Shown here piece after piece: positions 28,209 through 63,136 of a stretch of DNA of 63,136 nucleotides (positions are counted from its first letter, which is position 1; every line of letters begins with the position of its first letter). A program made the translations under genes and the position numbers. Source of the DNA: a virus. The stretch is taken from the IMG/VR virus record IMGVR_UViG_3300036770_007416, positions 1 through 63,136 of that record. One strand, given 5' to 3'. The notes under the pieces are model-generated. The model saw only the letters and a list, made by a program, of their open reading frames with translations. It was not told the origin of the DNA and made no database searches.

Positions 28209-31200
28209 ATGGCATACCAAAATATCAATCAGTACAATTATAGGAAGATTGGCCTGAAACCCGTCAATGAAATTTTAGATTTCTGTTTGGCAGATGATGC
28301 TCGGGATTTCAACCAAGAAGTTATTTTTTCGCCACTTTTGATTGCGGAGAATGATGGAAATAGGATGCCTTTTAATTTTGATTTTAATTCTACAGGTACA
28401 ACCATATCTCCTGTACGACATGAGTTTTTATACGACACAATTGTTTCTCAAAATTATTACAATCCATCAGATATCGACCCGAATTTTTGTGCAAAAACCA
28501 CTGAGATTTGTGACGTTGGTTTAACAGGTATCGACAATGGATTAACAAAAGAAATGTCGGGTATTACAATGACCGCATACACAGGTCTTTATACCACAAC
28601 AGCCGAAACTTTTAATAGATACATCTACGACAGAAGGTTCAAGATGCACCCAATCTCAGGAAACACCACACCTCAAAATCGTTTGTGGAATGACAATTCT
28701 TATTCTTACGGGCTTTCTTATGTAAATGCTGGTGGTGACATCGGAACAGTTGCTCAACTTAACGGTGGATTTTATCAAGGTTTTTACAAGCTTCAAGGTT
28801 ATGACTACCAAGTATTCCCAACTCGTATGAGTCAAGGGTGGACGGTAGAAATGATGTTGAAATATAGGTTTACTGGTGATACAAACGTTGGACTCAACGC
28901 TCGTTATCCTGAAAACAAAGGTATTTTCTTTTTCTTAGGAACAAGAGCGGAAAACAAATTTTATCACTATGCCGATGGCCACCCGTCTTCTGACACAGGT
29001 TACACACGAGTAACTTCAGGACTTACTTGTATGCACACTTGTGGGTGTTCTGTAACGGGAGGTACAGGTGCTGATTGTATTCCTGTCTACCAACCATCAG
29101 GTGTAACATCATCGAATTGTAATTGTGGTTGTCCGTGTAGTTGTTCCACTCAAGCATCTGTCAAGGAATTAGACCCATTATATGATGGAGTATCAAACGC
29201 TATGTCGATACGTTTTAGTGGTGATACTGGTAATCCAAGAGTTTGTGTAAAAGAATATCTAATCACGGGAAGCTGTATCCCATCAGGAACTTGTTTGACA
29301 GGGACTAGTTTTGTGACAGGAGTTACAACCGTTGAGTGGTGTTCGACTCGTGGTATTTTTGAAGATTGTAAATTTACCCCCTACATTAATTTGGAACACT
29401 GGGTTCAGATTGATGCGGTGTTTGAACGGAACGCCTACTTGGATTGTAAAGACCTTGATTATTTGGGGGGTTTAGGTCAAATAGAACAAGAGGTCTTCAC
29501 TGCCACATCGGCCAATAATAGTATCAGTTTAGTAACTGACCCAATTACTCACGAAGAAGGATATTCGGGATACAAACCAGCCAAAACAACACAGGTTGAA
29601 ATCACCGACTTGTGGTTGGAGGAAAGGAAATACAGACTCGGGACTCTGAAAATTTTCGTCAACGGTAAACTCCTTATGGTCTGTGAAGACTTTGAGGAAA
29701 TTATACCAAGACCTCTTAACACATACAAGGAGAGACAAGTTGGTGTTCCATTTAATATTTCGATTGGTGGAGGAACACAAGGACTAAAAGACAACTTAAC
29801 TTTTTCAGGTGGATGTCCTCCTGAAATTTCGGAAATAGTCTATCAACAAGACCCCGAGTGTCTGACAACTGAAGATTTGGATAATACAATTTATTCAGGA
29901 CTGTCAACAAACATTTACCTCGAAGAAATTTTCGGAGGTAGTTTTATCGGAGCCATCAGTGCATTCAGAATGTATGTTGACCCATTAGATGCCTCTGAGG
30001 TTAAACACAACTTCAGACTGCTTCAAAACAAATATGGACTTCTTGACCCTGATTGTCCGAACTGTGCTATTATTGTTCCCGCGAATGACCTCACTTATCT
30101 TGTTATTCCTGACGAAGATTTAGTTTATTTAATCATTCCTGATGATGATTTGGGTTACATTTTGATTCCTGAAAACGACTTAACATATGAAGAGTTGTTA
30201 GGGAATATTGTTGATGTGCAGTCTAATTATTCTCAGGGGTCGATTGTTGGAGATTTTTCTGCAGTTGGTAGTAGAGTTTTCGATGTACCAACAACCATCA
30301 GTTTCACAGTACAACTTGACACACTTACGGGGTCTCCAATAAATGAGGAGGTCAATATCTTTATAGATACGGGTGAGATTTCGGGAACAACTTCTAATGA
30401 AGTCGGTGGTAATTACCGTGATTTGTCTCTTTCGGGTTCTTACTTAAGTCTTAGCGCAAATACTTCAGGTCAGAGTATTAATATTTTCTCATTTACTACA
30501 GGTATAACTTTCGAAGTTCTTGAGACGGTTACTCCAACCCCAACGGTTACAAACACGCAAACTCCAACTAACACGCCTTCAAACACCCCATCAGTAACAA
30601 CTACTCAGACCCAAACAAATACTCCATCAAATAGCCAAACACCAACTAACACACCTTCGAACACACCATCGGGTACTGTAACTCCAACTCAGACCGCAAC
30701 AACTACAATGACACCAACCCCGAGTGCGACAGTTGGGTTGACACCAACCGCAACTGAATCACCAACACCAACTCAGACATTAACTCCAACAAATACTGAA
30801 ACGCCAACAAATACCCCGAGCGAAACACCAACAAATACTCCAACCTCAACTTTTACTCAAACCCCAACTCAAACTTCAACTGAAACCCCAACTAACACAC
30901 CCACATCCACAAACACTGAAACTCCAACCGAGACTCCTACGAATACACCAACTGAGAACCCAACAAATACACCAACCCATACGGCAACTCCAACTCCAAC
31001 ACCAACTTTACCGAATGAAGGATTCTTACTTCAAGAAAATTTGTTTATGATTCTTCAAGATGATGGTTACGGAATTTTGATTGAACCAATTCAAGCAACA
31101 CCCACGCTGACTCCAACACACACTCAAACACCAACACCAACTGTTGGGACAGTGACAATTGAGTTAGAAGGTGAATATTCACCTGGGTCAATTAATGCTC

Positions 31201-32966
31201 TTTACATTGCAACAGCAAACACAACATTGGATTCGGATGTTGAAATATTTTTTGTTGATGTATTAGGTACAACAACAGGTTCTCCAATTTCTCTGAGCGG
31301 TTCCGTTATTATAACTTCAGGTTCAAGTGTTGGAACGAGTTATTATACAATTGCCGGTGATTACGCTGAATTAAACAAAGTTTCAAACTTTAATGAAATT
31401 ACTTATGAAGTTACTGGCTCAAGCATAAATGTTCAAGTTAATACCAATTCTGTTTTTGATGTTACACCTACCCCAACAAACACATCTTCAATCACTCCAA
31501 CACCAACTATAACACCAAGTTCAAATATCGTAACTTCAGGTTTGATAATTCAACTTGATGCCAATAATACAACGAGTTACCCGGGTACAGGTACTTCAGT
31601 ATTCAATTTACAAAGTGGTTCATACACACACACATTAACAAATGCACCATTTACAATTTTGAATGGTATCAAATGTTTTGATTGTAATGGTCTCAGTACA
31701 ACAATTTCAGTTCCTAATGATACAGGTCCAATACTACCTACGACAGGCTATACTTACATAACTTGGGCAAGAATTAAAACAAGTTCTTCAACATACAGAA
31801 CTCTATTTAGAACCTTACCTTCGGACCACCCTATACTAGTTGATATTCTAACTGATAATTTAGGTTTTTGGAATAACGAGACCTCATCATTTACTGACTC
31901 GGGATATGATGTAACACCAATTGAAGACGTTTGGGTTCAATATACAGTTGTTGGTGATTCTTCAAGTAGTATATTCTACATTAATGGTGCACAAGTTGGG
32001 ACTGTTGCTTTGGGGGCGGGTGGAAATACCCATTGGGCTTGGGGTTCAATTGTTGGACAACCTTTCGGATATGTTGCTAACATGTATTTTTACAACAGAA
32101 AACTTTCCTTGGGTGAAATTACACAACAATACGATTTCTTAGCACCAAGATTTGTTGAACCATCTCCAACACCTACCAACACTCCCACTAACACTAATAC
32201 CCCTACTGTTACACCAACAACATCCCCTACGGTTACCCCAACAATTACACCAACACCATCATCAACACCTGCGATTGTAACAAATAATTTACAATTCTAT
32301 GTTTCACCTGAAAGTTACATTGGTTCAGGAACTGTTTGGAATTCCTCCGCTGGTTCAACAGATGCGACTTTATCAGGAAGTCCCACATACAACGTATTGA
32401 GTGGATTCACATTTGACGGTAGTACTTCTTATGGTAGAATACCAAGTGTGAATGGAGTCACGAATTTTACAAACACACAACAATATACTGTCGAAGTGTG
32501 GTTTAATCCTTCAAATGGACAACCAAACTCAGGTGAAGCGGAATTGTTGGAGAAGTGGAATTTGAATAACGAATCAAGATACCCATATACTATTAGATTT
32601 AATGAAGGGGGTAGTAGTATGTTAGTTGCTGTTTTTGATGGTACAGGTCCAGGTTTCCGTAACGTTTCAGTTTCTGGTTTCCCTGTAAACACATGGAGAC
32701 AGATTGTTGCGGTATTTGATTTTGTCGCTGGAACCCTCACAGTTTATAATAACGGTGTTTCGGGTGGTTCAACTAGTTTAGTTGGTGTGGGACAAGTAAG
32801 TAACACAAGTCCTGTAGGTATTGCGGGTAGAGTCGCTCAAGGTACAGGGGCTTTGCAAGTTCCATTCAAAGGTACCGTCGGAATTATAAGAATATACAAT
32901 GCACCATTGACGGCGTTTCAAGTTTTACAAAACTTCAATGCCGATAAAACCAAATACGGACTCTAA
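28209..32966 (+). CDS. giant mucin-like fibre/adhesin with LamG-like domains, 1585 aa
   Basis: A modular virion adhesin. Residues 1 to about 620 look like a beta-sandwich lectin-like region with a Cys-rich insert near 272-315 (CNCGCPCSC). At 626-661 lie three and a half 10-residue acidic repeats. A beta domain follows (about 668-770), then a long Thr/Pro tract (about 774-934), a second beta domain (about 980-1080), short Thr/Pro linkers, and two LamG/ConA-like domains (about 1105-1315 and 1360-1585) with VWFNPS and [10 protein letters not shown] segments typical of LamG. The C-terminal lectin domains probably bind a surface sugar. The first of the plus-strand fibre genes, with a promoter-like box 9 nt upstream. 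Tail-fibre location is inference. Confidence 0.8.
30084..30191 (+). repeat. 30-bp coding repeats, acidic 10-residue unit
   Basis: Three full units and a partial one encode [10 protein letters not shown]-like decapeptides ([36 protein letters not shown]) in the giant fibre protein. The alternating acidic pair and Tyr-hydrophobic strand would form a small stacked beta structure, perhaps metal-binding. Confidence 0.8.
30529..31010 (+). repeat. long Thr/Pro-rich tract in giant fibre gene
   Basis: About 160 codons in which Thr alternates with Pro, Asn, Gln, Glu or Ser ([10 protein letters not shown]-like). Low complexity at both DNA and protein level; the largest such tract of this gene. Shorter ones lie at about 31099-31145, 31462-31530 and 32158-32276, each linking two folded domains. 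Confidence 0.9.
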
Positions 32967-52707: not shown

Positions 52708-55700
52708 ATGTTTTTTCAATTAACTTCTCAAGCAAACCAAAAGGTCTTCGTATCTCCTGGAGTTTACACATCTGAAACTGATTTATCATTTGTTGCTCAG
52801 AGTGTTGGTGTAACAACTTTGGGTATTGTAGGTGAGACTCTCAAAGGTCCTGCTTTCGAACCAATTTTCATTACCAACTACGATGAGTTCCAAACATTCT
52901 TCGGAGGAACGGTACCAACAAAATTTATCGGAACTCAAATTCCAAAATATGAAGCCGCTTACATTGCCAAAGCGTATCTTCAACAATCAAATCAACTATT
53001 TGTTACTCGTATCTTGGGTTTATCAGGATATGATGCGGGTCCTTCATGGAGTTTGCAGGCGGTAGCAAACGTAGACAGTGCCTTCATCGGTATCGACACA
53101 TCAATTGCAACTGTTTCATTCACTGCTAATTTTTCCGGTTTTACTACAGGTAATACAGTGTCTTTTGGTTCAGGTCTACCAGCACTTCTTTCGAATAATC
53201 TCTCAACATCTTACACTTTGATTGATGGTTCAACTTCAACATATAGTAGAGATGTATACAACTTCGCTACAGATATTATTGCGGCTAATTCAGTATCAGG
53301 AAATACCGCCGTTGGTTATGGTTCAATTCCGAGTGTGGATTACAATACTTTGGCTTCGACCTATCCGAATGTTAACAACGAATTTGGTTGTGACAATTTG
53401 AGTTTGTCCTTCGCGGATTTGTCCAATGGAAATAATGACCCTTGGTACTACGCAACTTTTGACCCAACTACAGGAAATAACTACTCAGGGTATTCTTGGT
53501 ATTACTCAGTCACAAATTTCTTTACTGCGGCAACACCTTCAGTGGCAAACAACTACTTCTTTTCAGGAACTGTTACTGGTCAATTGTACACTTATTCAGG
53601 ACAAGCATACTATGATTGGAACAACTTAATTTTGGCAACAGTTCGTTCAAGAGGTATTTCAATTTATGATGCAAACGACCATGGTCCTCAATATCAAGTT
53701 ACAGGTCTTACTGACTTGAACTTGGTATGTACAGGTCCTTACTCGGGAATTTCCCAAAGTCCATTTGCAACATTCTTGTTGAGTGGTACAACCTACCAAG
53801 GAAATCCGTTTAGTTTTGAGGCGTCTTTTGATTCAACAAACTCCAACTACATTACAAAGGTGTTGGGTGTAACCAACTTTGCTAAACCAAGAACTGATGT
53901 TCCAATTTACGTGGAGGAATCATATCTTGGATTATTGAATTACGGATTTAACAAAGGGTACGTTCGTGGGGTCAAATGTGATTTGATTGCATTACCTGAG
54001 GCAAGAGATAAAACCTCAACAACTTCAATTGCTTGGTTCTTGGACCAATACCAAACACCTAAAACTCCATTCCTTGTTTCTGAACTTCGTGGTAATGTTG
54101 TTTACAATCTCTTCCGATTCATGACAATAAGCGATGGTAATTCCGCTAATACAGAGGTGAAAATCTCGATTGCGAATATTTCTTTCAGTAATCTTACGTT
54201 TGATGTTTTAGTTAGAGATTTCTTTGACACGGACGCTAACCCAGTAGTTTATGAAAAATTCACCAACTGTACTATGGACCCCACTAGTAACAGTTTTGTT
54301 GCTAAGAAAATCGGTTCTTCTGATGGTGAATATCCGTTAAACTCGGCTTACGTAATGGTTGAACTCTCTGATGAATACCCTGTAGATGCATTACCTTGTG
54401 GTTTCTATGGTCTCGAAGAAAGAGTTTACGAAAGTACCGCTAACCCTTCTCCTTTCCCAATCATCAAAAACAAGTATTTCTTCCCAGGAGAAACTATCTT
54501 TGACCCACCATTCGGAACAAGTGCGGGAGGAAGTAATATAACTTCATCCTCGGGTGACATAGTCAGAAGAACTTACTTAGGTATTTCATCTCAGTTTGGT
54601 ATCGACACTGATTTGTTACAGTACAAAGGAAAAAAGAATCCAGTTGTGGGATGGGATTTGGCAACAACTTCTGAACCTTGGAACTACCAAACAAAAGGTT
54701 TCCACATGGACTCAGGTGCAACAATTATTCAGATTGCTAACTCACAAATAACTAGTGGTACTCCAGCGTTCGTCTGTGGTGTTGCTAATTTCAGTGATGA
54801 ACCTACAGACCAAGCGAATCCTTATTACTTCCTTTACTCAAGAAAATTCACCACTGTATTCCAAGGTGGTTTCGATGGATGGGACATTTACAGAGAGTTC
54901 CGTACAAACCAAGATAGATTTGCTTTGGGAGCTTCAGGTTATTTACAAGGTGCTACTCCTACTCAACGTTATCCAACGGCTTCGGGAGATGGTACATTCA
55001 AGAGAATTGTTATTGGAGATAATACTCAAGATTTTGCTAACACCGACTATTACGCGTACTTGTTAGGTCAACTAGCGTTTGCGAATCCTGAGTCAACAAA
55101 CATAAATGTTTTTGCTACACCTGGTATCGACTACGTGAATAATTCTAATTTGTGTGAGTTGGCAATTGGTATGGTTGAGAATGAAAGAGCGGATGCGGTT
55201 TATATCGTTACTTCTCCTGACTACAACATGTATACACCTGATGGAGGTTCTCAATATGAAATTATCTATCCACAAGAGGCGGTGGATAATCTTGACCAAA
55301 CAGGAATAGATTCATCATACACCGCAACGTATTACCCATGGATTTTGGAAAGGGATACGGTTAACAACACTCAGTTATACATTCCACCAACAGGTCAAGT
55401 TTGTAGAAACTTAGCACTTACCGATAACATTTCCTTCCCATGGTTCGCTTCGGCGGGTTACACAAGAGGTCTTGTAAATTCAGTAAAGGCAAGATTAAAA
55501 CTGACTCAAGAGGATAGAGACACTCTTTACCAAGGTAGAATTAACCCAATCGCAACATTCTCGGACGTTGGTACTGTAATTTGGGGTAACAAAACACTTC
55601 AGATTAGAGATTCGGCACTTAACAGACTGAATGTTAGAAGACTTCTACTTCAAGCACGTAAGTTAATTTCGGCAGTAGCTGTTAGATTGTTGTTCGAACA

Positions 55701-55932
55701 AAACGATGAAATCGTGAGACAACAATTCTTGGATTCTGTAAATCCAATTTTGGACGCAATCCGAAGAGACCGTGGTTTGTATGACTTCCGTGTGACAGTG
55801 TCTTCAACTCCTGAAGATTTGGATAGAAACACCTTAACAGGTAAGATTTATCTTAAACCAACGAAGGCACTCGAATTCATAGACATAGAATTTTTGATTA
55901 CACCAACTGGTGCATCTTTCGAAAATATTTAA
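52708..55932 (+). CDS. gp18: tail sheath protein (gp18-like), 1074 aa
   Basis: Contractile sheath subunit. The N-terminus has VFVSPGVYTSETDLSFVAQS and a GIVGETLKGPAFEPIFI strand, the conserved start of sheath proteins, and the C-terminal ~150 residues carry NVRRLLLQARKLISAVAVRL and DFRVTVSSTPED, the sheath core that binds the tube. Between them is a large beta-rich insert; at 1074 residues it is much longer than T4 gp18 (659), so extra surface domains must project outward. A TATTTAT box lies 36 nt upstream and a strong terminator directly follows. Confidence 0.93.
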   Translation: MFFQLTSQANQKVFVSPGVYTSETDLSFVAQSVGVTTLGIVGETLKGPAFEPIFITNYDEFQTFFGGTVPTKFIGTQIPKYEAAYIAKAYLQQSNQLFVTRILGLSGYDAGPSWSLQAVANVDSAFIGIDTSIATVSFTANFSGFTTGNTVSFGSGLPALLSNNLSTSYTLIDGSTSTYSRDVYNFATDIIAANSVSGNTAVGYGSIPSVDYNTLASTYPNVNNEFGCDNLSLSFADLSNGNNDPWYYATFDPTTGNNYSGYSWYYSVTNFFTAATPSVANNYFFSGTVTGQLYTYSGQAYYDWNNLILATVRSRGISIYDANDHGPQYQVTGLTDLNLVCTGPYSGISQSPFATFLLSGTTYQGNPFSFEASFDSTNSNYITKVLGVTNFAKPRTDVPIYVEESYLGLLNYGFNKGYVRGVKCDLIALPEARDKTSTTSIAWFLDQYQTPKTPFLVSELRGNVVYNLFRFMTISDGNSANTEVKISIANISFSNLTFDVLVRDFFDTDANPVVYEKFTNCTMDPTSNSFVAKKIGSSDGEYPLNSAYVMVELSDEYPVDALPCGFYGLEERVYESTANPSPFPIIKNKYFFPGETIFDPPFGTSAGGSNITSSSGDIVRRTYLGISSQFGIDTDLLQYKGKKNPVVGWDLATTSEPWNYQTKGFHMDSGATIIQIANSQITSGTPAFVCGVANFSDEPTDQANPYYFLYSRKFTTVFQGGFDGWDIYREFRTNQDRFALGASGYLQGATPTQRYPTASGDGTFKRIVIGDNTQDFANTDYYAYLLGQLAFANPESTNINVFATPGIDYVNNSNLCELAIGMVENERADAVYIVTSPDYNMYTPDGGSQYEIIYPQEAVDNLDQTGIDSSYTATYYPWILERDTVNNTQLYIPPTGQVCRNLALTDNISFPWFASAGYTRGLVNSVKARLKLTQEDRDTLYQGRINPIATFSDVGTVIWGNKTLQIRDSALNRLNVRRLLLQARKLISAVAVRLLFEQNDEIVRQQFLDSVNPILDAIRRDRGLYDFRVTVSSTPEDLDRNTLTGKIYLKPTKALEFIDIEFLITPTGASFENI

Positions 55933-55983: not shown

Positions 55984-56805
55984 ATGAAAACTAAACTACA
56001 GGACACTTTCAAAAGTGGAACACCGGACCTTAAGTACTATGCTTTTGATTGGGACGACAATATTGTTTTAATGCCAACCAAAATCATTTTGTTAAATGAT
56101 AAGGGAGAAGAGGTAGAAATGTCAACTGAAGATTTTGCAGAGTATCGTTCAAAAATCGGAAAAGATAATTTCGAGTACAAAAATAATTTGATTGTTGACT
56201 ACGCTAAAAACGCATTTCGTAACTTCGGTGTAAAAGGGGATGATAAGTTTTTAAAGGAGTCTCTCAAAGCTAAGGTTGGACCTGCGTGGAACGATTTCAA
56301 AGAAGCCGTTAACAATGGGTCTATATTCGCTATTATAACCGCACGAGGTCATAACCCAAATACCATCAAAAAGTCAATTTTCAACTTCATACAGAAAAAT
56401 CATAACGGAATTTCTAAGTCTGAACTTATAAAAAATCTAAAAAAATATAGAGATTTTGTCGACGAAGAAGAAATGTCTGAAGATGATATGATTAAATCTT
56501 ACTTAGAGTTAAATAGATACAACCCTGTAAGTTTTGGGGTAGAAGATGAAGCGGTTTCTCCTGAGGAAGCCAAAGTCAGAGCCATGGCAGATTTTGTTAA
56601 TTATGTAAAAATAATTGCAGCTAGTTTGCAAAAAAAAGCATTTCTTAAAAAAGATATTGCTAATAAATTTATTCCTAGAAAACCAGTTATAGGCTTTTCA
56701 GATGATGATGAAAGCAATGTAAAAAAGATTAAAGATTATTTCAAAAGCATCAAAGAACCAATTAAGACATATTCAACTAAAGGAGGAATAAAAAAAGAAT
56801 ACTAG
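55984..56805 (+). CDS. HAD-like phosphatase between sheath and tube genes, 273 aa
   Basis: HAD motifs are present: YYAFDWDDNIVLMPTK near residues 18-33 (D23 and D25 as nucleophile and acid), FAIITARGHN near 115-124 (motif II Thr), then a basic helix and VIGFSDDDESNV near 234-245 (motif IV DDD). A charged insert (about 130-200) forms the cap. T4 has no such gene between the sheath and tube genes. Its substrate is unknown; a nucleic acid 3'-phosphatase, nucleotidase or protein phosphatase are possible. Placed after a terminator, it may have its own expression control. Confidence 0.75.
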   Translation: MKTKLQDTFKSGTPDLKYYAFDWDDNIVLMPTKIILLNDKGEEVEMSTEDFAEYRSKIGKDNFEYKNNLIVDYAKNAFRNFGVKGDDKFLKESLKAKVGPAWNDFKEAVNNGSIFAIITARGHNPNTIKKSIFNFIQKNHNGISKSELIKNLKKYRDFVDEEEMSEDDMIKSYLELNRYNPVSFGVEDEAVSPEEAKVRAMADFVNYVKIIAASLQKKAFLKKDIANKFIPRKPVIGFSDDDESNVKKIKDYFKSIKEPIKTYSTKGGIKKEY

Positions 56806-56918: not shown

Positions 56919-57407
56919 ATGGCGGATTTATTAATGAAAATGCCGATTCCTTATGAACCAAAAAGACAAAACAGGTTCATACTAAGGTTTCCTTCATCAT
57001 TAGGTATTAATGAGTGGTTCGTAGAGTCAACGGCACGTCCTCACATAACCATTACACCTACTGAAATTCAATTCTTGAATACCTCAACGTTTGTTGCGGG
57101 AAGATTCAACTGGCAAACGATTCCAGTAACTTTCCGTGACCCCATCGGACCTTCAGCCGCTCAGGCACTTATGGAATGGGTACGTTTACACGCAGAATCT
57201 GTGACTGGACGTATGGGTTACGCTGCGGGATACAAAAAAGACATCGACCTTGAAATGTTGGACCCAACAGGTGTAGTTGTAGAAAAATGGATTTTGTACG
57301 GTACATTCTTAACTGATGTTAACTTCAACACTTTGAATTATTCTCAAGATGGATTGGCAACAATCTCTGCTACTCTGAGAATGGACCGTTGTGTATTGAT
57401 ATACTAA
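56919..57407 (+). CDS. gp19: tail tube protein (gp19-like), 162 aa
   Basis: Length is nearly identical to T4 gp19 (163). The N-terminus PIPYEPKRQNRFILRFPSSL is the tube-protein pattern, followed by a beta barrel with the segment STARPHITITPTEIQF and later VTFRDPIGPSAAQALMEW, both conserved in tube proteins of T4-like phages. It polymerises into the inner tail tube. TATTTAT box 37 nt upstream. Confidence 0.94.
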   Translation: MADLLMKMPIPYEPKRQNRFILRFPSSLGINEWFVESTARPHITITPTEIQFLNTSTFVAGRFNWQTIPVTFRDPIGPSAAQALMEWVRLHAESVTGRMGYAAGYKKDIDLEMLDPTGVVVEKWILYGTFLTDVNFNTLNYSQDGLATISATLRMDRCVLIY

Positions 57408-57477: not shown

Positions 57478-58221
57478 ATGGACCAAGATACACAAAATTA
57501 CGGACAACAAAACTTTACCCTTCCTCATGATGTGGTTCAACTACCATCTAAGGGAACTTTTTATAAAAATAAAAAGAGTTCAATCAAAGTGGGTTACCTC
57601 ACAGCAAGTGATGAAAACATTTTACTTGCTGGTGGTAAGGACATGACATTAAACTTATTGAGGGCAAAGATATACGAACCAGGTCTTCGACCTGAAGAAC
57701 TTTTGGAAACCGATATTGAGGCAATATTGATTTTTTTGAGAAACACAGCCTTTGGTCCTGATATAGAACTGAACTTAACAGACCCAGTCACAGGGAAAAA
57801 ATTCAAAGCCACCGAAAGACTCGATGAATTGAACATCCAACACGGACAACAACCCGCAGAAGACGGTACATTCTCCACAAGACTACCGATGTCTGAAAAA
57901 ACAATCAAAGTAAAACCAATCACGTATGGAGAGAGTATTGAAATTAGTAATATGGTAGACACTTACCCACAAGGAAGAGTTGCACCAGTCAGAACTTGGA
58001 GACTTCAAAAAGAAATTGTTTCAGTAGAGGGAGTGACAGACAAAACTGAAATTCAGAAATTTGTGGAATCAATGCCATTGGCAGATTCTAAACACATAAA
58101 AAAATTCTTAAATGAAAACGAACCCCGCTTGGACCTAATCCGAGTGATTATTGCCCCATCAGGAGAAAAGCTGAACGTGAATATCGGCTTTGGGGTGGAC
58201 TTTTTTCGCCCTTTCTTCTGA
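57478..58221 (+). CDS. gp26: gp26-family baseplate/tail assembly protein, 247 aa
   Basis: The N-terminal half matches the T4 gp26 baseplate family (Pfam T4_baseplate): VVQLPSKGTFYKNKKSSIKV, VGYLTASDENILL and LLETDIEAILIFLRNTAFGPD. T4 gp26 is 208 residues. In many phages genes at this position, just before the tape measure, code for tail assembly chaperones. The stop codon (58219-58221) lies inside an ORF in the +1 frame, see the next entry. It begins immediately after a terminator hairpin whose U-run abuts the ATG. Confidence 0.82.
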   Translation: MDQDTQNYGQQNFTLPHDVVQLPSKGTFYKNKKSSIKVGYLTASDENILLAGGKDMTLNLLRAKIYEPGLRPEELLETDIEAILIFLRNTAFGPDIELNLTDPVTGKKFKATERLDELNIQHGQQPAEDGTFSTRLPMSEKTIKVKPITYGESIEISNMVDTYPQGRVAPVRTWRLQKEIVSVEGVTDKTEIQKFVESMPLADSKHIKKFLNENEPRLDLIRVIIAPSGEKLNVNIGFGVDFFRPFF

Positions 58222-58360
58222 GTATCGGCAAAACCAAATTGATGAATTTTATTATCTCTCTCAATTTTTCGGAGTTTCCTACTCGGATTTTACGGTTATG
58301 CCAATATTTGTCCGAAAGTATCTTCTTAATAAATGGATTGAGGAAAAACAGAAATCCTGA
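58181..58360 (+). CDS. +1-frame tail-chaperone-like extension ORF, up to 59 aa
   Basis: Open frame in the +1 phase across the end of the gp26-family gene, without an ATG before residue 40 (V-M-P). Its sequence looks like the C-terminal part of tail assembly chaperones: EYRQNQIDEFYYLSQFFGVS, then FTVMPIFVRKYLLNKWIEE, the 'MP-x-x-x-R-x-(Y/W)' signature common in such proteins. If expressed by a +1 shift at TTT-C (58204-58207), the fusion would have about 293 residues. A TTG at 58190 could be a separate start. It lies directly before the tape-measure-like gene, as G/GT and E/E' pairs do. Confidence 0.6.
   Translation: MSALGWTFFALSSEYRQNQIDEFYYLSQFFGVSYSDFTVMPIFVRKYLLNKWIEEKQKS
58204..58207 (+). 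promoter_or_regulatory. candidate +1 programmed frameshift site
   Basis: The zero frame reads GAC-TTT-TTT-CGC. A tRNA-Phe on the second TTT can re-pair without mismatch on TTC one base downstream, while CGC, likely a rare codon in this AT-rich genome, waits in the A site. The next +1 codon is GCC. No stop-codon-driven site (like that of prfB) fits as well at the TGA itself. Confidence 0.4.
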
Positions 58361-58367
58361 TTTAACC

Positions 58368-58374
58368 TATTTAT
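58368..58374 (+). promoter_or_regulatory. TATTTAT box, tape-measure-like gene
   Basis: Context CCTATTTATCT, 25 nt before the ATG and just after the stop of the +1-frame ORF. Confidence 0.4.
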
Positions 58375-58399
58375 CTAGAAGAAACAAGTAACAAAAAAA

Positions 58400-60022
58400 A
58401 TGTTTTTTCAAAACACAGGAGATAATCAAGGTAGTGAGAACTTTGCAGACCGTATCAAAGAAGGTATTAAGGAGTCTGTAAATCTACTCGGAAACATTGG
58501 ACGTATCCAAGATGGTATCACCAACATCAACCGTGGATTTGGTGAAACTCGTGAAAGATATCAAGAATTTTCTAGAGTTGTCTCTGACAGTGTTTCAGAT
58601 ATCACACGATTAGGTGGGGGTGTTGCGGACATTGCTACGACAATAGAACAAATAGGTGTGGGTGCGAGAAGAAACGTAGTCGCTTCCAAAGAAACGTTAT
58701 TGGAGATTTTCGCCACCCAAAAATTTTTGGGACAAACTGTTGCGGGTATAGTCGAAAATTTTGCACAAATAGGTGTAGATTCTTCTATGATTGCTGAAAA
58801 CGTAGAAAACTCCGTTAATTACGTAAGAGGAATAGGACTTAATGCAATAACCATCATGAGTGACGTTTCTGCCAAAATGGATTTGATGAATAGATTCAAT
58901 TTCCAAGATGGTGTTTTAGGTCTCACAAAAATGGCTGCGCAGGCTTCAATGTTGAGATTTGATATGCAAAAAACCGCAGATTTTGCAGACAAGGTTATGA
59001 ATCCTGAAGGTGCAATTCAAACGGCTGCGGCATTCCAAAGACTTGGAGTTGCTTCAGGAGATTTAATTGACCCATTTGTTTTGATGGACAAATCAATAAA
59101 TGACCCTCAGGGACTTCAAGACTCACTAATTGACCTTACAAGACAGTTTACTTACTTCGATGAACAGGCTCAACAGTTTAGAATTAATCCTGGCGGGGTT
59201 AGGTTGATGAAAGAACTTGCTGAGGCTGCGGGTATGACGTATTCCGAGTTTTCCAAAACTGCAATATCGGCGGCTGACTTAGATAGAAGGTTATCTATGA
59301 TAAACTTTGAAATAGAGGCACCTGAAGAAGATAAACTTCTCATTGCTAATATGGCAAAAATGGGTGAGGGTGGTCGTTACTTCGTAGAAATTGAAGATAA
59401 GGGTCAAGTCGAATTGGGACAAATAACTCAGGAAGAGTTCGGAAAGTTAAGAGAATCATTTGAAGAACCAAAAACAATTGAAGAAATTCAAAGGAGTCAA
59501 TTGGATACGTTCAGGCAGGTATCCAACGATATTATAGCCTTACCATTGAGAATTGGATATGCTCTTGCGGGCCAAACAGGACTCGTTCGTGGTATCGAAA
59601 CCTTAAGGTTTGAAACAGACAAATTAGCCGAAAGATTTTTAGGCGAACAAGGATTCGGAACATCACAAGATTTTCGTGAAGGGTTCGAAGGTATGGGAGA
59701 TAAATTAATTGGAGACTTAAAAAGTGTCATTGCTGGTGAAATGACCACCACAGAGTTTCAGGCGAGTGCTATGTCGGCAATACGTGGTAATACTTCCCTT
59801 TTTCAAGAACAAGACAGAAGAAGAGGGTCCGCAGCAACAATTCAGACCGAAAGTAAAGTTGAAGTAGATGGGGATATAGTTATTCGGGTAGAAGCACCCA
59901 CAACTTTAAGTGAGCAACAAATTGATAGTATATTCAGTAAAAGAGAGGTACAAGAAAAAATATACCAAATAGTTTCGTCACAGGCTGATGTCGCTATTAG
60001 AAAATCTAAAAATAACAACTAA
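58400..60022 (+). CDS. tape-measure-like tail protein (gp29-like), 540 aa
   Basis: A long helical protein beginning with Gln/Asn-rich and coiled-coil segments (residues 15-130: KEGIKESVNLLGNIGRIQDG, then SVSDITRLGGGVADIATT), rich in Ala, Gly, Met and Ile. This composition, its size (T4 gp29 is 590) and its place after the gp26-family/chaperone pair point to the tape-measure protein, which sets tail length and is ejected with the DNA. A segment LMKELAEAAGMTYSEFSKTA near 270-290 is shared with homologues in environmental phages. TATTTAT box 25 nt upstream. Confidence 0.7.
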   Translation: MFFQNTGDNQGSENFADRIKEGIKESVNLLGNIGRIQDGITNINRGFGETRERYQEFSRVVSDSVSDITRLGGGVADIATTIEQIGVGARRNVVASKETLLEIFATQKFLGQTVAGIVENFAQIGVDSSMIAENVENSVNYVRGIGLNAITIMSDVSAKMDLMNRFNFQDGVLGLTKMAAQASMLRFDMQKTADFADKVMNPEGAIQTAAAFQRLGVASGDLIDPFVLMDKSINDPQGLQDSLIDLTRQFTYFDEQAQQFRINPGGVRLMKELAEAAGMTYSEFSKTAISAADLDRRLSMINFEIEAPEEDKLLIANMAKMGEGGRYFVEIEDKGQVELGQITQEEFGKLRESFEEPKTIEEIQRSQLDTFRQVSNDIIALPLRIGYALAGQTGLVRGIETLRFETDKLAERFLGEQGFGTSQDFREGFEGMGDKLIGDLKSVIAGEMTTTEFQASAMSAIRGNTSLFQEQDRRRGSAATIQTESKVEVDGDIVIRVEAPTTLSEQQIDSIFSKREVQEKIYQIVSSQADVAIRKSKNNN

Positions 60023-60046: not shown

Positions 60047-63000
60047 ATGGCCAGTCCACTCGATTTTCCTAGTTCAGAGGTCTTCAGAAAAAAACTTATT
60101 GTAAGAAACTTAGTTCCTTACAAAAAGACTCCTGGTTTACCGAGTGCCCCATTTCAATATGAAGTAGTACAGAGAGATTTATCTCCTGTTGATTCCAACG
60201 ATGCTCTTATTGACACACCTGTATTGGCTAATGGTTTATACCCACTCAATCAATATGGTGCTGACGGTGGTTACAAACAAGTAAGAGATGTTAACATTTT
60301 ACAAAACACCCGTAGTAACGAAGGTGAATATGGATACCAAGATGCTAACATAATCGATGAAGGATTCATTGCAGCACAAACGGGTTTCCCTGGAGTGGCA
60401 CCGGCTTGGAAACCCCTTAACGCATATGCCAGTACTGACCAATTAACTGACGCGGCTGGTTTTTTCGGTAGTTTAGAAATCTTAACTCAAAATAACGGAA
60501 GGAGTTCAAACGCTCAACCTTATCCTAATTTCAATTCTTCTTCGTACTCAACAATTAGTTTAATGTTGAATCCTGACCCTCAAGGTTCAAATGGTTTATT
60601 GTCGAGTGATTCTTATTTGGCAAAATTAGGTGCAACAAACCTAAAAAAACAAATCGAATATAATATTGGTCGAGAAATTAGACGTAACACTTTGGGACGT
60701 GCTAATTTTCTTAACGTAAATGGTGGGGAAGATATACTTGCATTCATTAATGGAAGGGTACCTTTATTAGAACCAAACTGGACAATTACTGAGGGTTCTA
60801 CAATTATTGGTGCTGCTGCGGGATTGTTGAATAGAATATCGGGTTCATATGCACCGTTTTCAGTCATACCAGGACAATATTTTGACCCACAAATCAATAG
60901 TGGTATACCTACAACGGGCCAACAGTTAGCTTCGGCATTTTTAGGCGCAAACTTAGCGGCTGGTATTGGTAGATTTTTTGCAAGACTTAATTCTCAGTCA
61001 AACTTAAGGGGGTCACAACTGTTCCTTGAAAATACTGGCGGAGGTCAACGTTCTCAACTATTCAAAAATTTAGATTACAACCTCTACAAGCCGGGTTACG
61101 ACCGACCGATTTTCGACCGAGTTGCTGGTGCTCTACAAGGTAGAAATACAAATAATGGGGAATATTATATTGGAAGTGTAAAAACGGAACCATCACAGGT
61201 ATTCTCACCTTCTGGTGATGTTCCTGTTGACCAATTTGGTAGAGAAATTCAATCTCCTGTTTATGGACCACAAGAGTTGGCTCAACTTTATGAGGGACCT
61301 GGACAAGCACTTAACTTGGGTGCTAACGGGCCAACATACAGTAGTGGTGGTGATATTGTGGGTGGGTTCACTTGGGTGTCTCCGAAGTTTAAGGGCAATG
61401 CGGGAAAGTATGTTGGATTGGGTGGAGACCCAATTGCCGAAGACCCTGACTTTAGACCATCTGCCTACCAACCAACAGAATCTACAGAATTCCAATTCAG
61501 ACAAGGGTCGATTATGGATGATACCCAACGTATCATTGACTCACAGCCAAGAGGAGGTAGAAGACTTCAACATGTCGGAAACGCAATTGACCAAGTATCG
61601 AAAGTGTTTAATGATGGGTATAAAGAAATCACAAAAGGTTCAAGAGTTAGAAGATATATTGGTGAAATCGGTGCCGAAGTGGGAATTGAATATTGTAGAA
61701 TATTCCAAAAAGATACTCCGTACCTACAATACAATGACCTTCAAAAAACTGATGGTATAACCACCGAAGGAAGAAGATTCGCTTATTCGATATTTGACAA
61801 AACTTACAACCTTAATATTGCCCCCAATAAAAGAGAAGGTGGACAAGACTCTACAAATATTATAGGTGGACCTGAGGGATATGCTAAAAAGTATATGTTC
61901 TCTTTAGAAAACTTGGCTTGGAGGACTTCGAACAGACCAGGTTTAACAGTTTCTGACTTACCTGTGTGTGAAAGAGGTCCAAATGGGGGTCGGGTTATGT
62001 GGTTCCCACCATACGGATTACAATTTAACGAGTCTGTAAGAGCATCGTTCAAATCAACTGATTTTATCGGTAGACCAGAACCTGTATTTACCTACTCCAA
62101 CACTTCTAGGTCGGGAACCCTTAATTGGAAGATAGTTGTCGACCACCCATCAGTGCTCAATATGTTGGTCAACAGAGTCTTAAACGACACCACCTTGAAA
62201 CAAAGGGCAGATGAAATTTTGGATTCTTTCTTTGCGGGATGTAGGAAATACGACCTTTATGAATTGGCAAGAAAATATTACACCGTTAACCCAAATGACA
62301 TTTTTGAAATTCAACAAAGATTGGAAACTAAAAATGTCACAAGAGAAGAAGTTCAGTATTATACAAGAACTATTCAAAGTGGGGGATTCAATACAACAAA
62401 TGGAGGTACTGCAGGGGTTTCAACTATTGCTGGAAGTTCTTCCTCACAGGTGGCAAATTCGGGATACAATTACCAATCGATAGTCAATTTTGGTTTTTAC
62501 TACGACAATGATATTCCTAAACCACCACCAGCTCAAACAACGAGCTTTCAGGGTTACTGGGATGCATACACTAGTCAATCGAATAAATCTAAATATCAAT
62601 CTAAAAGTACACCTTTGGGTCAGGCAACGAATGTTGCGAATTTCTTTACTCAAGTTGTTGAGGGAAACAAACAAGCTATTGATGTTGCCCTACGTAGCTT
62701 GAGTGACGACTTAACGAATGACCCAAGCGCGACCGCAACAATTTTATTGGAAGGAACGGCTTCGGCGCCACAAAAAGTGGATTACAACCAAAGATTATCT
62801 GTAAGAAGAAATGATGCGGTAATACAATACATTGCATCCATTGGTAACTTAGGTAGTTTGATAGACGTACAACTGTTCATTCAACAAAGAGCGTCTGGTG
62901 AAACTTCAACAGTAACTGTAAAGGGTGTAAACCAAACCGAAAATTTTGGAACCTACAATTGTGCGAGTGTTGTTGATGGTGCCGATAACCTTTCAAGTGA

Positions 63001-63136
63001 TGAGTTAATTTACACCATTAACGCAATGGCTTGTAGAAGAACTTCGATTGCCAACATTTCATATAACCCGTCAACCAAAATAGAAGAGGTTACTTCAACT
63101 GATGAAATACCTTTCTATAACACAGAAATCATTGAA
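60047..63136 (+). CDS. large tail/baseplate protein with OmpA-like segment, partial (≥1030 aa)
   Basis: Runs in frame to the window's end; the C-terminus is missing. The N-terminal ~590 residues are Asn/Gly/Pro/Tyr-rich and without known motif. Near 651-708 is a segment with MWFPPYGLQFNES and GRPEPVFTYSNTSRSGTL, similar to phage tail proteins of the XkdP/gp53 type. Near 896-930 LLEGTASAP and YNQRLSVRRNDAVIQYI resemble the OmpA-like peptidoglycan-binding domain (the N-x-x-L-S-x-x-R-x-x-x-V pattern). A peptidoglycan contact at the baseplate would suit infection. It follows the tape-measure gene by 24 nt with a TATTTAT box between. Confidence 0.7.
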   Translation, partial: MASPLDFPSSEVFRKKLIVRNLVPYKKTPGLPSAPFQYEVVQRDLSPVDSNDALIDTPVLANGLYPLNQYGADGGYKQVRDVNILQNTRSNEGEYGYQDANIIDEGFIAAQTGFPGVAPAWKPLNAYASTDQLTDAAGFFGSLEILTQNNGRSSNAQPYPNFNSSSYSTISLMLNPDPQGSNGLLSSDSYLAKLGATNLKKQIEYNIGREIRRNTLGRANFLNVNGGEDILAFINGRVPLLEPNWTITEGSTIIGAAAGLLNRISGSYAPFSVIPGQYFDPQINSGIPTTGQQLASAFLGANLAAGIGRFFARLNSQSNLRGSQLFLENTGGGQRSQLFKNLDYNLYKPGYDRPIFDRVAGALQGRNTNNGEYYIGSVKTEPSQVFSPSGDVPVDQFGREIQSPVYGPQELAQLYEGPGQALNLGANGPTYSSGGDIVGGFTWVSPKFKGNAGKYVGLGGDPIAEDPDFRPSAYQPTESTEFQFRQGSIMDDTQRIIDSQPRGGRRLQHVGNAIDQVSKVFNDGYKEITKGSRVRRYIGEIGAEVGIEYCRIFQKDTPYLQYNDLQKTDGITTEGRRFAYSIFDKTYNLNIAPNKREGGQDSTNIIGGPEGYAKKYMFSLENLAWRTSNRPGLTVSDLPVCERGPNGGRVMWFPPYGLQFNESVRASFKSTDFIGRPEPVFTYSNTSRSGTLNWKIVVDHPSVLNMLVNRVLNDTTLKQRADEILDSFFAGCRKYDLYELARKYYTVNPNDIFEIQQRLETKNVTREEVQYYTRTIQSGGFNTTNGGTAGVSTIAGSSSSQVANSGYNYQSIVNFGFYYDNDIPKPPPAQTTSFQGYWDAYTSQSNKSKYQSKSTPLGQATNVANFFTQVVEGNKQAIDVALRSLSDDLTNDPSATATILLEGTASAPQKVDYNQRLSVRRNDAVIQYIASIGNLGSLIDVQLFIQQRASGETSTVTVKGVNQTENFGTYNCASVVDGADNLSSDELIYTINAMACRRTSIANISYNPSTKIEEVTSTDEIPFYNTEIIE

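Follow-up and report, generated by a model that had tools for sequence, protein, structure and literature searches.

A probable programmed +1 ribosomal frameshift in the gp26-family tail assembly chaperone gene of a virus from IMG/VR and its relatives

The gp26-family tail assembly chaperone gene of the virus record IMGVR_UViG_3300036770_007416 very probably undergoes a programmed +1 ribosomal frameshift. We infer frameshifting in this phage, and its direction on the ribosome, from which frames are open and how well these are conserved, from the constraint on codons at the shift site, and from the homology of the C-terminal part (TAC-C) among relatives. The stretch analysed, positions 1 to 63,136 of the record (63,136 nucleotides), is referred to as the window. 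A sequence-only reading of this DNA had described a gp26-family ORF (57478-58221) that overlaps an ORF in the +1 frame (58181-58360), and the overlap, coordinates, and phase were correct. The features of the locus are as follows.

57478..58221, + strand: TAC-N, the predicted short tail assembly chaperone of the gp26 family, 247 aa, with TGA at 58219-58221 as its stop (PF12322, PHROG 150, AlphaFold model).
58181..58360, + strand: +1-frame ORF carrying TAC-C, open to 58357, stop at 58358-58360 (homologous +1 peptide in 269 loci).
57478..58357, + strand: TAC-NC, the predicted fusion of 293 aa, with TTTC (58204-58207) read as one Phe (translation and fusion profile).
58192..58195, + strand: conserved GGGG, a candidate 5' stimulator, five bases 5' of TTT TTT.
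58201..58207, + strand: putative shift site TTT TTT C(GC), with TTT TTT at 58201-58206 and CGC at 58207-58209 (site codons and following base conserved across 178 representatives).
58208..58221, + strand: dual-coded stretch GCCCTTTCTTCTGA, frame 0 RPFF-stop and +1 frame ALSSE (CCT TTC TTC nearly invariant).

The gp26-family ORF ends in GAC TTT TTT CGC CCT TTC TTC TGA (58198-58221). The majority of ribosomes would stay in frame from TTT TTT through the TGA and produce the 247-aa TAC-N; others, whose P-site tRNA-Phe is paired with either TTT, would slip by +1 base. Re-pairing in the +1 frame takes the first codon from TTT to TTT and the second from TTT to TTC, and DFFALSS results from either. 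Slipped ribosomes would then read GCC CTT TCT TCT GAG and continue through about 50 residues of TAC-C, the useful part of which runs from GCC at 58208 to 58357 (the peptide of the +1-frame ORF, 58181-58360, reads ...TFFALSSEYRQNQIDEFYYLSQFFGVSYSDFTVMPIFVRKYLLNKWIEEKQKS), to yield the 293-aa TAC-NC as the rarer product. We infer both this rate and a chaperone role for the products; by analogy with lambda gpG/gpGT, TAC-N would be the form that coats the tape measure protein, and TAC-NC the form that recruits tail tube subunits.

By itself, an open +1 frame is weak evidence for recoding, and conservation is the deciding evidence. An equally open +1 frame follows 12 of the 80 long ORFs in the window; some of these frames will belong to genuine downstream genes. 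The -1 frame at this locus happens to be open likewise (58116-58391). A profile trained on +1 peptides from relatives, with the window outside of the training set, scored the window's second ORF at 65.8 bits and gave its -1 frame no score. By frame length alone, the window and two further loci (L249 and L278) would count as -1, an assignment that profile scoring ruled out. In a six-frame translation of the whole window, the gp26 and TAC-C profiles matched these two ORFs only. Searches of Pfam and PHROG with the C-terminal peptide alone returned no family below E 0.01.

Among IMG/VR sequences, 26 relatives were found, two of which were truncated. The +1 phase and, almost unchanged, the stretch TTTTTTCG(C/T)CCTTTCTTC were kept in all 24 near relatives with an intact end (TAC-N identity 61-100% aa), whereas in L027 and L028 the stop is displaced by two codons. 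Three wider scans, together with named phages, yielded 287 loci with a gp26-family ORF. Scoring of the second ORF with the TAC-C profile, which was trained on +1 members such that their scores are partly by construction, assigned 269 of these loci to the +1 class, 12 to the -1 class, and one (RM378) to a weak +1 class, with five truncated; +1 loci comprise 269 of the 281 that are classifiable. The profile built from +1 peptides also finds the second ORF of -1 members (best E 1.3e-8), and in those the match is solely in the -1 frame. In most relatives of the window, the -1 frame is shut no more than a few codons from the stop and only the +1 peptide is conserved; no conserved -1-frame second ORF was found in the window's clade. 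Past the TAC-N stop, substitutions among close relatives number 2040, 1023, and 3574 at +1-frame positions 1, 2, and 3, respectively, similar to the frame-0 pattern upstream (1591, 1111, and 4031). This third-position excess beyond the stop is a +1 codon-position bias and supports TAC-C as a putative coding sequence.

The conservation of phase bears directly on the possibility that the true gene occupies one frame and that a sequencing or assembly error divided it here, a reading for which the homopolymer at the junction could be cited. However, the same phase is seen in 269 loci from many metagenomes and from the isolates SP-15, LIS04, immuto, Mel-JY01, and SagM-GXN1, and the 0-frame stop is kept in relatives; an error is already refuted and retains a negligible probability. 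The sequence-only reading had proposed an alignment of relatives and had named a one-frame fusion through an indel as the outcome that would point to such an error. Overlap and phase proved to be kept (in the 24 intact IMG/VR relatives and in 269 of the 287 loci), and an in-frame fusion of the second part was found in none of the 287.

Constraint on the site was evaluated in 178 diverged representatives that share <30% of 12-mers outside of the last 60 bases. The site codons are TTT TTT in 145 representatives, TTT CTT in 24, and TTT CTA, CTT TTT, and TTC TTT in three each, and the base after the site is T in 102, C in 75, and A in one. Expressed by position, the first codon is TTT in 172/178, the second is TTT or CTT in 175/178, and the next base is T or C in 177/178. 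Re-pairing in +1 in the P site is possible at one or both codons in every representative (178/178), and the TTT-to-TTC slip that had been suggested from the window holds across the set. In the window's branch (R-type; 74 representatives), the Arg after the site is encoded by CGN in 74/74, whereas AGA/AGG comprise 71% of Arg codons elsewhere, with p-values for codon constraint that ignore kinship among representatives. The C of these CGN codons is what TTT-to-TTC re-pairing requires. The A-site codon is TGG or CGN, and the rare codons CGG and CGC are over-represented but also fix the +1 residue. The constancy of CCT TTC TTC 3' of the slip is attributable to dual coding.

A -2 frameshift at the second TTT, as in the phage Mu counterpart, would reach the same frame with one Phe added (DFFFALSS). 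This is a known route in tailed phages (PMC5009743), and re-pairing of the second codon two bases back is possible in the window and in 148/178 representatives (147 and L047). Yet -2 re-pairing fails, and +1 re-pairing is possible, in 30/178 representatives with TTC TTT, TTT CTT, TTT CTA, or CTT TTT sites, and the constraint to T or C at the base after the site is needed for +1 but not for -2. We consider a -2 shift unlikely. Slippage of RNA polymerase on the T run would yield mRNA that lacks one U or has gained two and is then translated normally, and the T6 run of the window and the T7 runs of many relatives (TTTTTTTGG) would be suited to it. Same-phase relatives that carry the second ORF, however, include those with three-T runs (TTTCTTTGG in 23 representatives, TTTCTATGG, and TTCTTTCG), and the constraint on the next base, being in phase with the codons, is in keeping with slippage by the ribosome instead, which makes slippage by the polymerase very unlikely. 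Since -2 re-pairing fails in 30 representatives and three-T runs occur, neither process explains the clade; the window's own T6 permits -2 and, in principle, polymerase slippage.

The programmed +1 shift was also weighed against TAC-C being translated independently, as a small protein from a start codon of its own, as might be thought from databases in which short genes named 'hypothetical' or 'baseplate hub assembly catalyst' are annotated at this position. The annotated starts fall within the conserved beginning of TAC-C or beyond it, and the usable stretch (<=15 codons past the slip) is without ATG in 98/178 representatives and without ATG, GTG, or TTG in 33/178. The absence of a good start for the second part, remarked on previously for the window, extends to its relatives, among which there is no consistent start codon. 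A separate protein would, moreover, leave unexplained why codons 5' of the site are constrained, and we regard it as extremely improbable.

Upstream of the proposed +1 shift site, the Gly codon at -3 is GGG in 73/74 R-type representatives, against a background of 10% of Gly codons elsewhere. This Gly lies outside of the dual-coded stretch and is read in frame 0 only, and the constraint therefore points to a nucleotide signal. The GGGG is a candidate stimulator that matches no known stimulator, and we claim no mechanism for it; a search downstream of the site found no 3' RNA structure (mean z -0.5). The +1 site of prfB is CTT TGA with an upstream AGGGGG. The sites described here resemble it in that CTT then T occurs in 29 unique loci and a G-rich element lies upstream. 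They differ in that the zero-frame stop is away from the slip site, such that no stop codon occupies the A site, and in that GGGG is spaced 5-8 bases from the slip codon, as compared to 3 for the Shine-Dalgarno-like element of prfB.

The assignment of TAC-N to the gp26 family is based on matches to Pfam PF12322 (T4_baseplate; E 7.7e-8, 32.7 bits, exceeding the cut-off of 24.5) and to PHROG 150 'baseplate hub' (E 3.2e-9), and PF12322 is matched by 44/44 aligned relatives. In an AlphaFold model of TAC-N (pLDDT 85), the best match by VIA-align was 2OB9, the tail assembly chaperone of HK97 (Z 5.6, 82 residues, rmsd 3.8 A), followed by the small phage-type proteins 3klu, 3fgx, and 5ir0; all four have Z 4.3-5.6 as compared to <=2.5 for unrelated rows, values that, being below 8, may reflect a mere common arrangement. 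Foldseek alone compared the model with 2OB9 at E 0.91 (prob 0.60), and among viral models the matches were gp26 and hub proteins. These comparisons of models support, short of proof, a chaperone fold for TAC-N. A structure model of the fusion made without an alignment had pLDDT 34 and was discarded, and when the fusion profile was searched against PDB sequences, only chance Rab-like matches were returned (E 0.03 and worse).

The window carries a contractile-tail module comprising sheath, tube, the gp26-family gene, a likely tape measure, and a large structural gene, as follows.

52708-55932: tail sheath, 1074 aa.
56919..57407, + strand: tail tube protein, gp19-like, the upstream neighbour (PHROG 4542, E 2e-24).
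58400..60022, + strand: likely tape measure protein, 540 aa, the downstream neighbour (position and profile comparison).
60047-63136: large structural gene that runs off the window end.

By itself, the tape-measure candidate had no Pfam or PHROG match, and BLASTP against the tape measure of immuto found nothing. Its profile, however, aligns with that of the same-place gene of the immuto-like group (98.3%, E 2e-14, 254 columns), which is annotated as tape measure in immuto, and 58400-60022 is likely to encode a tape measure. TAC-N is encoded between the tube and tape-measure genes, as expected of a tail assembly chaperone and as annotated in immuto and SP-15. The proposed order of short form, fusion, and tape measure is thereby borne out, with the tube upstream and the likely tape measure downstream.

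Several other features of the module were observed. The sheath domain is recognised at residues 753-1072 only, and the ~700 residues upstream form an N-terminal or inserted part of unusual size. The 60047-63136 protein has a weak OmpA-like match at about residues 877-932 (E 0.0036, below the cut-off), as if the tail bore a peptidoglycan-binding domain. Between the sheath and tube lies a 273-aa gene (55984-56805) whose product carries, close to its N-terminus, a DWDD motif (YAFDWDDNIVLMPT) that recalls HAD-type phosphatases, but has no match in Pfam or PHROG. A second TTTTTTCGC is found at 28324-28332, near the start of a 1585-aa ORF (28209-32966) with a Laminin_G_3 domain at its C-terminal end.

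In T4, two separate genes, 26 and 51, are present. No second full-length gp26-like gene was found in the window, which is a 63-kb fragment. T4 gp26 and gp51 are paralogues (BLASTP E 2e-6) and match the family profiles weakly, and the TAC-C profile did not match the gp51 C-terminus. Genes 26 and 51 of T4 are reportedly named in the 2022 work of Vladimirov and colleagues, with which this paralogy agrees. Lambda gpG/gpGT and P2 E/E' share with the window the order of short form, extended fusion, and tape measure, and the production of two products from one start; they shift -1, unlike the window, and no sequence similarity is expected.

According to papers that cite it (PMC10885494, PMC12846349), Vladimirov et al. 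2022 (Virology 566:9-15) identified T4-like tail assembly chaperones. Those of the gp26/gp51 type belong to the same family as TAC-N of the window, with a short form and a C-terminally extended long form, the same TAC-C signature MP..R, and, in several groups, frameshifting at a poly-T site close to the 3' end. As described in the citing papers, some T4-like phages have a short and a long gene, and T4-like TAC-N genes carry poly-T signals that are published as -1, as opposed to +1 in the window's clade. Going by these accounts, the chaperone role of gp26/gp51 is already known, and the suggestion from the window that gp26-family proteins are tail chaperones holds as a reading but is not new. 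Frameshifting of +1 in tail genes is likewise known. In this gene pair, shifts of -1, -2, or +1 are all used by tailed phages, and the myovirus HSTV-2 very likely uses +1, with T4 then an exception (Atkins et al. 2016, PMC5009743). The haloarchaeal HSTV-2 and the Listeria phages PSA, A118, and A500 are reported as +1 cases in tail genes, as is proposed here (PMC5009743); PSA, however, does so on proline codons in structural proteins, and HSTV-2 is not known as a member of the gp26 family.

The gp26 loci of jumbo phages and cyanophages (PA5oct, PBECO4, RaK2, GAP32, S-H25, and Bellamy) have homologous TAC-N and TAC-C and the same Phe-Phe, but slip -1 on T TTT TTY, whereas the window's clade slips +1 on TTT TTT Y. 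The +1-fusion profile aligns over its whole length, the Phe-Phe junction included, with these -1 fusions (99.8%, E 5e-30). In a tree of 45 TAC-N proteins, shift direction needs two changes, perhaps one, as compared to about 11 for shuffled labels. The window groups on the +1 side with phages of Flavobacterium, Rhodothermus, Microcystis, Bacillus, Listeria, and Streptococcus; jumbo phages and cyanophages form the -1 side. One -1 locus, L035 (LR756511), is on a long branch that groups weakly among +1 phages and has a long proline- and glycine-rich linker between the slip site and TAC-C; it is a possible second switch of direction. The earlier expectation that a +1 shift would be unusual in a T4-like phage needs correction: the named jumbo phages and cyanophages use -1, but +1 is no single oddity and is the rule in a large clade (269/281). 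We lean toward the interpretation that the gp26 family includes an ancient, widespread +1 lineage, with a 5' GGGG in the window's branch and sister groups that shift -1 at the homologous Phe-Phe, and that direction switched once or twice while the site and both products were kept. As far as we found, a large, old +1 gp26 lineage has no earlier report; Vladimirov et al. 2022, known through citing papers, may mention +1.

Gene finders mostly end at the 0-frame stop, and TAC-C is either missed or called as a small gene with no relation to gp26; examples are immuto, SP-15, Atu_ph07, and cyanophages. In named phages, the small genes annotated after gp26 as 'hypothetical protein' or 'baseplate hub assembly catalyst' (L030:4857-4967, L033:4797-4916, L034:4735-4875, L036:4921-5043, L043:1836-1940, and L049:2199-2369) are pieces of the frameshifted TAC-C. 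Recognition of the probable +1 frameshift would correct the annotation of hundreds of phages. The family may also be informative on signals that set +1 efficiency outside of prfB and antizyme, and the use of +1 and -1 shifts at a homologous site in one family would constitute a natural experiment on the evolution of recoding direction.
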